Source of the DNA: a virus
Direction: 5' to 3' (one strand)
DNA length: 64,000 bases
IMG/VR virus record: IMGVR_UViG_3300046660_000488
Coordinates: 514,293-578,292 of that record
Shown here piece by piece: positions 5,894-33,953 of this stretch; the stretch's first letter is position 1, and each line of letters begins with the position of its first letter. Below the pieces are notes generated by a model that was not told the origin of the DNA, searched no databases, and saw only the letters and a list, made by a program, of their open reading frames with translations. The position numbers were made by a program, and so were the translations under genes.

Positions 5894-5968
5894 GCCGGGG
5901 TAGCTCAGGGGTAGAGCAGCGGGCTGAAAATCCGCGTGTCGGAGGTTCGAATCCTCTCCCCGGCACCA
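5894..5968 (+). tRNA. tRNA-Phe(GAA), second
   Basis: Acceptor GCCGGGG/CCCCGGC, anticodon loop CTGAAAA in a GCGGG/TCCGC stem, T-arm with GTTCGAATC, A plus CCA. It differs from the first Phe tRNA in acceptor and D-arm, so it is not a recent duplicate. Confidence 0.92.
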
Positions 5969-5969
5969 T

Positions 5970-6044
5970 GGTCGCGTAGCTCAGCGGGAGAGCGTCCCCT
6001 TGACGTGGGGAAGGTCGCAGGTTCAATCCCTGCCGCGACTACCA
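5970..6044 (+). tRNA. tRNA-Val(GAC), second
   Basis: Acceptor GGTCGCG/CGCGACT, anticodon loop TTGACGT in a TCCCC/GGGGA stem, T-arm with GTTCAATCC, A plus CCA. It starts one base after tRNA-Phe and is the last tRNA before the PheRS-like gene. Confidence 0.88.
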
Positions 6045-6074
6045 TTTTTCTCAACCAGAAAGGAACCGACTCCC

Positions 6075-7171
6075 ATGGGGTTCAGCCGCTAAGTCCAGAG
6101 AGCCTTCAACGGTATCTGGCGATCAAAGACCTAACTGACCCGGCGACGGGTAAACACGCAATCAACGTTGTCCTCCAGAAATTGACGAAGGCGGTCCAAG
6201 ACTGGGCGGGTTTACACCCGGAAGTCCTGCGTTCCTCCCCAATCGTTTCCATCCAAGACAATTACGACCGCCTCTACTATGAGGCGGACGCTGTCGCACG
6301 CTCGTCGCGCTATTCGCATTATGTGGATGACACCCACATCTTGCGGACGCACACGACGGCGGCCGTGCCCGGCTATCTGCGCGAGACCACGGACGACCGT
6401 CTGATGGTTCTGCCGGGCATCGTCTATCGCCGCGACGTCATGGACAAGATGCACGTCGGCGAACCACACCAAGTCGATCTGTGGATCGTCAAGCAGGCCC
6501 GCCTGCGGCGCCGCGATCTTGAGGCCATGATCTCGGCCATCATGACTGCGATCCTACCCGGCCGCGTGTACCGCTGCAACGAGACCATCCATCCCTACAC
6601 CGTCAACGGCCTTGAGGTCGAAGTGCAGGTTGGCGACCGTTGGGTCGAGGTCTTGGAATGCGGCGAGGCCCACCCATGGGTTCTGAACGACGCTGGGCTG
6701 TCTTCAGCCACATGGTCGGGACTGGCCATGGGCATCGGTCTGGACCGTCTGGTGATGCTCCTGAAGGGCGTGGAGGACATCCGGCTGCTACGGAGCACCG
6801 ACAAGCGCGTCTACGGCCAGATGCAGACCATGCAGCCCTATCTACCGGTCAGCGATCAGCCGAGCGCTAAGCGGGACCTGTCCATCGTCGTTGACGAAGT
6901 GGACATGGAACTGTTGGGCGACAAGGTCCGCACTTTGCTGGGCGACCGGGCCGAGTGGATGGAGGAAATCATCCACGTCGGCGACTACGGCTGGCACGAT
7001 GTTCCGGACGCTGCTCGCCAACGTCTGGGTATGGGGCAGGATCAACGGAACCTCGTTATCCGGCTGATCATGCGCTCGCCGACCCAGAGCATCCCTCGCG
7101 AGGTCGCAAACGAGGTCTACGCGCAAGTCTACGAAGGTCTGCATCAGGGCTCCACGGTCGGCTATCGCTGA
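6075..7171 (+). CDS. phenylalanyl-tRNA-synthetase-like single-chain enzyme
   Basis: About 365 aa. It has the class II synthetase core of PheRS: an N-terminal region with DNYDRL and ILRTHT, motif 2 as YRRDVMDKMHVGEPHQVDL, and motif 3 as GLAMGIGLDRLVML followed by EDIRLL. The C-terminal about 95 residues match the FDX-ACB anticodon-binding domain (KRDLSIVV onward). Catalytic plus FDX-ACB in one chain is the layout of mitochondrial PheRS and of PheRS-related proteins in some bacteria. It should charge tRNA-Phe; two tRNA-Phe genes lie upstream. Start problem: the only ATG with a ribosome site (GAAAGGA, ATG at 6075) is one frame off and meets a stop after five codons. ATGGGG allows a -1 slip on GGG into the long frame, whose family similarity begins at about 6083. 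Programmed shift, non-ATG start or a sequence error are all possible. Confidence 0.85.
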
Positions 7172-29456: not shown

Positions 29457-29523
29457 AATATATCGACCGAAATCCAACGCCGTCGTATCCTGACCAAATA
29501 GGGCGTTGTGAGTATTTTTGGTC

Positions 29524-29922
29524 ATGGTCAAGCTGTTCATTGACGACGAGCGCTTCCCGCCGGGGGACGGCGAGGGATGGATCGTCGTGCGGACAATGGA
29601 AGAGGGTCAGGCGTACATCGCCCAGCACGGTTGCCCGACCTTCATCAGCTTCGACCATGACCTTGGGTACGACGGCCTCGCCCTTCTCCCGACCGGCTAC
29701 GACTTCGCCAAATGGCTGGTAGATCAGGATATGGACGCCAAGGGCCATTTCTTCCCAGACGGTTTCTGGTACTACGTCCACAGCCAGAACCCGGTCGGCG
29801 CTCGCAACATCGACGAGTTGATGTCGAGCTATTTGCTTGTGCACCGTGAAATGCCGGAGGGGATTACTATCGGATGGACGGCTGAGCCGACCACAGCGGG
29901 CTTCAGCATCCGCTATCGGTAG
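29524..29922 (+). CDS. cyclic-phosphate-processing receiver-domain protein
   Basis: 132 aa. Matches the cREC (receiver-like) family: LFIDDERFPPGDGEGW with the DDE acidic triad, VVRTMEEGQAYI, then ISFDHDLGYDGLALLPTGYDFAKWLV and a C-terminal HSQNP segment. These domains are predicted to process cyclic phosphates on RNA ends and are frequent in phages with RNA-repair genes. Direct proof of the reaction is lacking for this protein. A role in healing cleaved tRNA would fit the tRNA array and RNA ligase. Confidence 0.78.
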   Translation: MVKLFIDDERFPPGDGEGWIVVRTMEEGQAYIAQHGCPTFISFDHDLGYDGLALLPTGYDFAKWLVDQDMDAKGHFFPDGFWYYVHSQNPVGARNIDELMSSYLLVHREMPEGITIGWTAEPTTAGFSIRYR

Positions 29923-29984: not shown

Positions 29985-29988
29985 TTGC

Positions 29989-30636
29989 ATGTCCAAGGGC
30001 GAGATCATTCTGATCAAGGGTCGCGTGATCGACCAAGACGGCAAGCTGGCCGACATCGGCCGCTACGTCGCGCCCGTGAGCATGAAGGCCGATTTCGACG
30101 ACGAGGGCTATCCCTGCCTGTCGTTCCAGATGATCCATCGCATCCCCAGCCAGATGCTGGACGCCCTGCGCGACATCGTCATGACCAACGCCAACGGCGG
30201 CTTCTCCTACGAGTTCACCGCGCTGAAGATCGTCGGTGGCCAGATGGTCGCCCAATTCTCGCGCGGCTGCGGCCAAGTCGGTGAACGGAAGACCGTTCGC
30301 GAAGGCCTGTCGTTCTGGATGATCGACCGGCCGCACGTCATCCTCCCCTCGACCGTCCTCGAAGGCGATCCGCGCACCGGACCGTGGGAGCTTCCGGAAT
30401 ACATGACCGCATGGCTGGAGACCAACTGCGGCTTCGAGGCCGTCAGCGAAGAGCGCGTGAACGAGGCGCGTGGCTGGAATTGGGCCATCGCCGAGATCAA
30501 GCCCAAGGTCGTCAAGACGCTTTCCGACCGGTTCGTCGCCAGCATCGTCTTCCATGAGCCCGAGACGGCTCACGCTTTCGTCGCTAAATTTGGCCTGAAG
30601 ACGCTGAACATCGACGTTCTGCGTCAGGGAGGATAA
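29989..30636 (+). CDS. hypothetical protein, 215 aa
   Basis: ATG with GGAGG inside a hairpin (see 29955). Beta-rich N-terminal half (KGEIILIKGRVIDQDGK), helical C-terminal half (WNWAIAEIKPKVVKTLSD). No family recognised. Heads a three-gene early unit. Confidence 0.78.
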   Translation: MSKGEIILIKGRVIDQDGKLADIGRYVAPVSMKADFDDEGYPCLSFQMIHRIPSQMLDALRDIVMTNANGGFSYEFTALKIVGGQMVAQFSRGCGQVGERKTVREGLSFWMIDRPHVILPSTVLEGDPRTGPWELPEYMTAWLETNCGFEAVSEERVNEARGWNWAIAEIKPKVVKTLSDRFVASIVFHEPETAHAFVAKFGLKTLNIDVLRQGG

Positions 30637-30640
30637 GACC

Positions 30641-30853
30641 GTGTACGACGTCACTTCCGGCATCGCCGAAGCCGGGCGCCTCGACCCGATCCGTTCGAGC
30701 CTGCAAACGGCACGCCAATTCCAGCGAGACGCTGACACCCGTCTTGCCAGTTTCAGGGAAGGCACGTCGCACCACGACAGCGCCGTCGAGGACAAGAAAC
30801 GCGCGGATGCCATGTTGGACGCCGCCCTCGCCCAGCTTGAAAGCCTGCGCTGA
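30641..30853 (+). CDS. hypothetical helical protein, 70 aa
   Basis: GTG start with AGGGAGGA upstream. Single long helix-rich protein (KKRADAMLDAALAQLESLR). Overlaps the next start by one base. Function unknown. Confidence 0.72.
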   Translation: MYDVTSGIAEAGRLDPIRSSLQTARQFQRDADTRLASFREGTSHHDSAVEDKKRADAMLDAALAQLESLR

Positions 30854-31331: not shown

Positions 31332-31337
31332 TAAATA
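31332..31337 (+). promoter_or_regulatory. TAAATA before ArfA-like gene
   Basis: TAAATA with predicted start about 31343; the AGGAAGAAGG ribosome site follows. It may also serve as -10 for the TTGACC at 31309. Confidence 0.5.
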
Positions 31338-31364
31338 GAGTTTCCTCTAACAGGAAGAAGGACA

Positions 31365-31568
31365 ATGGCGAAGCGACCCCCGCGCAACCCGCGCAACCCG
31401 CACGCCCAAGCCCTCTTCACCTGCAAGCTCTTCGCTCCGAAGTCCGTGCCGGTGAAAAAGGGAAAGGGCATGAAGTACGACCGCAAGAAGGATCGGGGAG
31501 TGGACCTCTCCGGTCCTTATTTTTTGCCTGAATACTTGGGGTTTTTGAGACCAGTGTTTTTCGCTTAA
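31365..31568 (+). CDS. arfA: ArfA-like ribosome-rescue factor with internal terminator
   Basis: Full frame 67 aa. Residues about 10-45 resemble ArfA: NPHAQALFTCKLFAPKSVPV, then KKGKGMKYDRKKDRG, the basic tail that enters the empty mRNA channel. ArfA recruits RF2 to ribosomes stalled on mRNAs without a stop codon. A strong intrinsic terminator (31488-31526) lies inside the frame just after the KGKG/RKK part, before any stop codon. Most transcripts should therefore be non-stop. Bacterial arfA genes use the same trick, so the protein is made only when tmRNA fails. The mature product would be about 50-53 aa. Identification is from motif and gene design; it is short, so homology should be checked. 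Confidence 0.75.
   Translation: MAKRPPRNPRNPHAQALFTCKLFAPKSVPVKKGKGMKYDRKKDRGVDLSGPYFLPEYLGFLRPVFFA
31488..31526 (+). terminator. intrinsic terminator inside the ArfA-like frame
   Basis: 13-bp stem (31488-31500 with 31506-31518, two wobble pairs), 5-base loop TGGAC, then ATTTTTT. The stop codon of the frame is 40 bases further on. Confidence 0.88.
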
Positions 31569-33947: not shown

Positions 33948-33953
33948 TAAATA
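33948..33953 (+). promoter_or_regulatory. late promoter TAAATA
   Basis: Core preceded by CC; predicted start about 33959, leader 18 bases with a GGAGA ribosome site. Confidence 0.65.

Follow-up and report, generated by a model that had tools for sequence, protein, structure and literature searches.

A megaphage gene for a small ArfA-like protein carries a terminator hairpin and T-tract within its own reading frame, and related megaphages with diverged sequence also have an in-frame hairpin in this gene. The likely and best explanation, in our view, is that the phage makes an ArfA-type rescue factor from a non-stop mRNA; the protein similarity, the in-frame terminator and the recurrence of the hairpin are shown, and termination, control by transfer-messenger RNA (tmRNA) and rescue are inferred. 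The gene was analysed in a 64,000-nucleotide stretch of viral DNA, here called the window (bases 514293–578292 of a virus record of 578,292 bases). This DNA comes from a T4-type megaphage of 578 kb, a relative of Agrobacterium phage Atu_ph07. A previous sequence-only reading had assigned the DNA to a T4-type phage, and this held: the phage has genes for a DnaB-like helicase, a primase and a ribonucleotide reductase, as well as TAAATA promoter-like sites. The closest relatives of the helicase are from Atu_ph07 and Sinorhizobium phage Phosso, so the host is likely to be alphaproteobacterial, which has not been shown.

Rescue factors under non-stop control were previously known from bacterial genes. 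In Escherichia coli, a stem–loop within the arfA frame leads to a non-stop mRNA, either because RNase III cleaves the transcript or because transcription terminates early (PMC3989581). The ArfA made from this mRNA is tagged by tmRNA and accumulates once trans-translation is overwhelmed (PMC3989581, PMC8012679); full-length ArfA is unstable owing to a hydrophobic tail (PMC8012679). The brfA gene of Bacillus subtilis has a Rho-independent terminator in frame ahead of its stop codon (PMC6881298). BrfA acts in RF2-dependent rescue and is silenced by trans-translation, which we propose likewise for the phage gene, although BrfA is bacterial and has been described as distinct from ArfA (PMC6881298). 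Every sequence element of the arfA/brfA scheme is present in the phage gene, and it is on this analogy that we propose non-stop control.

The sequence-only reading had claimed a small basic protein of the ArfA type at 31365–31568 and had suggested a comparison with the ArfA family PF03889 as a check. The claim held with both PF03889 and a bacterial-only ArfA HMM. Within the whole Pfam library, residues 15–42 match positions 15–41 of the 44-position PF03889 profile (E = 7e-4); however, the score (19.4–20.5 bits) does not reach the curated cut-off of 25.5 bits, and we therefore file the protein as ArfA-like, a remote homologue rather than a certified family member. With the bacterial-only HMM, the window frame ranks first among 1664 six-frame segments (E = 4.4e-5; next, 2.2) and the protein outscores 2000 of 2000 shuffled versions of itself. 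Nearly all of its phage relatives (18 of 19) match PF03889, the best at 7.8e-11. Like E. coli ArfA, the phage product is short and basic, with the order N-A-x-A-L...LF...KKGKG...RK. Residues A18, L19, L24, F25 and KKGKG of E. coli ArfA, which has a solved structure, correspond without gaps to A16, L17, L22, F23 and KKGKG of the window protein; by spacing, it has both the RF2-contact segment (A18..F25, of which F25 is an RF2 contact; PMC8012679) and the KKGKG mRNA-channel motif. R40 is invariant across a 13-sequence alignment. Unlike in E. coli ArfA, one residue is inserted after KGKG, where the usual Ser of KGKGS is missing, and identity is only about 36% over 33 residues; pairwise BLAST between the two is weak (E = 0.013). 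The window protein has no match in NCBIfam or PHROGs, and single-sequence searches of phages, plasmids, viral contigs and genome contigs also returned nothing; for so short and divergent a protein, alignments are required. The similarity is thus shown, and recruitment of RF2 and rescue activity are inferred.

One alternative is that this basic ArfA-like peptide no longer rescues ribosomes and instead, for example, binds the ribosome or RF2 to block host translation control, or binds nucleic acid. In its favour are the score below the Pfam cut-off, the loss of KGKG from the homologues in Atu_ph07 and a 607-kb relative, and the fact that longer marine-phage proteins start with the same motif and continue into unrelated tails. 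Against it, the whole A..L..F..KKGKG..Y.RK pattern is intact in the window protein, spacing included, and RF2-dependent rescue factors are known to be characterized by a non-stop layout. We consider this alternative unlikely.

The gene has its own putative expression signals (Table 1). A copy of TAAATA, which resembles a late promoter, sits 27 nt 5′ of the ATG. This hexamer occurs 23 times in the window against an expectation of 3.4 ± 1.8, 20 of the 23 copies are on the + (coding) strand, and many are a few bases 5′ of start codons. Each of four homologues (L086, L200, L191 and L186) also has TAAATA upstream. A protein resembling the T4 late sigma factor has been reported in Atu_ph07 (PMC6102473), which fits the interpretation of TAAATA as a late promoter. 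Further promoter-like copies on the + strand, just 5′ of many open reading frames, include those at 33948, 34211, 37074, 57920 and 60927.

Table 1 Features of the arfA-like gene and its surroundings, in window coordinates
Feature	Position	Strand	Details and basis
cREC (cyclic-phosphate processing receiver) gene	29518..29922	+	PF20274, E = 4.6e-23; neighbourhood only
TAAATA, late-promoter-like element of the arfA-like gene	31332..31337	+	Hexamer enrichment and upstream copies in homologues
Shine–Dalgarno-like AGGAAGAAGG	31352..31361	+	Sequence inspection; 3 nt 5′ of ATG
arfA-like open reading frame	31365-31568	+	ATG at 31365, TAA at 31566-31568; 67 aa
ArfA-like coding core MAKRPPRNPRNPHAQALFTCKLFAPKSVPVKKGKGMKYDRKKDRGVDLSGPYF	31365..31523	+	PF03889 and bacterial-only HMM; 50% identity to the 415-kb homologue
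13-bp terminator hairpin AAGGATCGGGGAG-TGGAC-CTCTCCGGTCCTT	31488..31518	+	-20.2 kcal/mol
T-tract ATTTTTT	31519..31525	+	Predicted transcript 3′ end, ahead of any stop codon
Read-through extension LPEYLGFLRPVFFA and stop TAA (31566-31568)	31524..31568	+	Translation

The sequence-only reading had also placed a 13-bp intrinsic terminator inside the reading frame, just after the RKK tail. Both points held, with the small correction that the hairpin begins at codon K42, directly after RKK, and that termination in the T-tract would leave about 53 codons. The hairpin and T-tract are in the arfA-like frame, and the only stop codon is 40 nt further on. The layout thereby meets the criterion for a non-stop gene, namely a terminator or RNase III hairpin that lies in frame between the functional core and the first stop codon. 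It had further been claimed that transcripts end before the stop codon; the in-frame terminator supports this, and the hairpin and T-tract should yield a non-stop mRNA, but the end itself and termination in vivo are inferred, without RNA data. We would expect a terminated mRNA of about 53 codons, and the read-through extension would seldom be made. The extension is hydrophobic, which is partly forced by its T-rich codons. The phage gene has a strong T-tract, whereas E. coli arfA depends chiefly on RNase III and to some extent on termination (PMC3989581). Only four terminator-like hairpins of ≤ -19 kcal/mol occur in the 64 kb, this one included; the other three are positioned in gaps between main open reading frames, which leaves the arfA-like hairpin as the sole one within a frame. 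No equally stable hairpin arose on the + strand of the window in ten dinucleotide shuffles. In a local shuffle test, a hairpin and T-tract following the KGKG..R motif had p = 0.001, and the fold of the RNA has z = -3.2.

In-frame hairpins recur in related megaphages. The closest record with a large contig is 415 kb in length, has a terminase that is 75% identical and carries a homologue (L086) that is 50% identical to the window protein over the core and has an in-frame hairpin of its own, followed by a T-rich tail (fold z = -4.5). A 561-kb record (terminase 62% identical to that of the window phage) has a homologue, L200, the in-frame hairpin of which has the L086 stem but differs in its loop and is followed by a weaker tail. 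Both hairpins are at the same codons as that of the window. Atu_ph07 has an unannotated homologue and the 607-kb record a weak one; both lack KGKG, and each has an in-frame hairpin from which the T-tract is missing, which weighs against the non-stop ArfA reading. From the codon after R40, the frames of the window, L086, L200 and Atu_ph07 align gaplessly, codon for codon, and yet the 5′ arm of the window hairpin is identical to those of the other three at only 5–8 of 17 positions; each 5′ arm pairs with its own 3′ arm, and the pairing is in different registers. Such sequence turnover with pairing retained argues that selection acts on the hairpin. The claim that the gene has the same non-stop design as bacterial arfA is therefore supported by recurrence of the layout, which resembles E. 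coli arfA in having an in-frame hairpin past the functional core and a hydrophobic read-through tail; control by tmRNA remains inferred. We dropped the idea that the frame of the 607-kb relative runs into a tRNA excised from the mRNA, because the tRNA is on the opposite strand.

ArfA-like genes are frequent in phages: two overlapping searches yielded 361 and 332 viral contigs with confirmed examples. A hairpin in frame before any stop codon was found at 21 of 85 unique loci, a count that includes near-copies and one or two cases (for example, L143) that appear to be due to chance. Hairpin and T-tract are both in frame in the group of the window and L086, the L102/L137 group, L203, L244 and Pseudomonas phage Y3. 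Only the L102/L137 group lacks support in the local shuffle test, which misses it because the hairpin begins one codon earlier. In-frame terminators are thus present, as a sequence feature, in several unrelated lineages of phage arfA. Not all phages share the design: most sampled phage arfA-like genes have an ordinary stop codon within a few codons of KGKGSxxR. One such stop-codon locus, L090, has a nominal terminator-like signal after its stop (p = 0.004), the sole one among the surveyed loci. We did not count the weak profile matches at L087, L192 (G010) and L190 (a 267-aa protein) as ArfA. Separately, NPxAKxL...KGKGSYTRK heads longer marine-phage proteins (L104, L113 and L159) that share a conserved tail, NKAGNYTKPTMRKRLF, of unknown function; the long-tailed proteins with KGKGSYTRK (L104, L113 and others) were set aside.

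These data bear on a second alternative, in which the product is of the ArfA type but the hairpin serves merely as a normal 3′ terminator, overlapping an open frame by chance, and the working protein comes from read-through to the TAA. An open frame over about 12 codons is not in itself improbable, and the intrinsic terminators of the window phage are real. However, none of the other three strong hairpins of the window lies in a frame; the in-frame placement recurs, with diverged arms, in related megaphages and in unrelated phage arfA lineages; L090 alone has even a nominal signal 3′ of the stop; and the read-through tail is hydrophobic, like that of unstable full-length E. coli ArfA. Chance overlap therefore seems improbable to us.

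Under the preferred reading of a non-stop ArfA-type factor, transcription would start near the gene's own TAAATA and end in the T-tract before the stop codon, and ribosomes would stall at the 3′ end of the mRNA after about 53 codons. While host tmRNA–SmpB is free, the nascent peptide would be tagged and degraded. Saturation of trans-translation, for instance when mRNA is cleaved or decays late in infection, would allow peptide to be released untagged, to bind ribosomes with an empty mRNA channel, to recruit RF2 and to free these ribosomes. This rescue would extend to ribosomes on the arfA-like mRNA itself, such that the level of the peptide rises. We did not find SmpB in the window phage; the full-length tmRNA model (RF00023) gave no match over the cut-off in the phage, and the permuted alpha-type model did not cover the whole record. 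Silencing is therefore assumed to fall to host tmRNA. In the absence of RNA or activity data, it is only by inference that transcripts terminate in vivo, that tmRNA controls the product, that rescue depends on RF2 and that the phage benefits. ArfA–RF2 pairs are species specific (PMC6881298); that the host and its RF2 are unidentified weighs, as does the score below the Pfam cut-off, against the ArfA-type rescue reading.

A third possibility is that the non-stop mRNA is itself an active decoy, an abundant late transcript that occupies host tmRNA–SmpB, with the peptide secondary. Non-stop mRNAs are substrates of tmRNA, and the gene is equipped with a promoter-like element and a terminator of its own. 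Against this, a decoy would have no need for the conservation that the protein shows between megaphages (50% identity), and we regard the decoy as very unlikely.

Phage ArfA proteins as such are already known: g10 of Citromicrobium phage RXM (PMC8953757) and gp30 of pelagiphage HTVC027P, the transcription of which was followed (PMC12753301), are annotated as ArfA. Together with that of Brevundimonas phage Bambus, which is likewise annotated, these ArfA-like proteins are from phages of alphaproteobacteria, as the window gene probably is. The RXM gene has an 11-bp hairpin in frame, followed by a weak T-tract, a feature that goes unremarked in PMC8953757; the Bambus gene, unlike that of the window, has a normal stop codon. 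Neither the RXM nor the HTVC027P paper mentions a non-stop design, and ArfA is absent from a jumbo-phage review in which RNA repair and ribosome rescue are covered (PMC7824862). We found no description of a non-stop arfA design in phages in the open-access literature searched, which is not proof. The sequence-only reading had claimed novelty, and this held only in part: on the basis of open-access literature, it is the self-limiting, non-stop design that appears to be unreported in a virus.

ArfA is rare in Alphaproteobacteria: PF03889 exceeds its cut-off in 8 of 387 sampled genomes, and a published survey found ArfA in 0 of 2376 (PMC11633108). On a bolder reading, which we offer tentatively and think more apt to fail than to hold, megaphages exploit the trans-translation capacity of the host as a damage sensor. 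A late non-stop arfA would stay silent until mRNA cleavage driven by the phage or by host defence saturates tmRNA, and RF2-dependent rescue would then be switched on in alphaproteobacterial hosts that mostly lack ArfA; alongside RNA-end processing (cREC), this would amount to counter-defence of the translation machinery. If true, several megaphage lineages monitor and exploit trans-translation in a host group largely without ArfA. The freeing of ribosomes by phages under mRNA cleavage becomes directly testable with a 53-codon gene, and a possible function is suggested for phage families listed as unknown (phrog_20887, phrog_37108 and phrog_2701). In the 415-kb relative, a cREC gene (L086:1122-1430; E = 1.6e-24) is directly upstream of arfA. 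No partner family dominates among 90 flanking proteins, where cREC and RtcB each appear a single time, so the RNA-repair link is merely a lead. In Caulobacter phage Cr30, an RNA ligase gene is one gene away from arfA.

On the host side, many SAR11 genomes (L285, L287-L295 and other Pelagibacteraceae loci) encode an ArfA-like protein of about 35 residues with a normal stop codon and an end resembling KGKGSFKRKKK. One tested SAR11 genome exceeds the Pfam cut-off (31.4 bits), whereas the published survey reports no arfA in Alphaproteobacteria. L373 and L374, in alphaproteobacterial genomes, are ArfA-like genes with an apparent in-frame, long-loop hairpin and T-tract after KGKGSYRR, and are a possible host-side source.

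The window phage encodes 24 tRNAs, in an array adjoined by a phenylalanyl-tRNA synthetase-like gene (5936-7171). Outside the window, at about 29988-30683 of phage genome G000 (L193:1174-1869), is a gene for an RF1-like release factor that contains a TGA in frame (L193:1279-1281). RF1 homology is in the same frame on both sides of the TGA, tblastn aligns 98% of the gene as one piece, and the phage uses TGA as the stop codon of other genes. The TGA could be read through, be bypassed by an internal start, mark a broken gene or result from a sequence error; the arrangement is reminiscent of the autoregulation of bacterial RF2.
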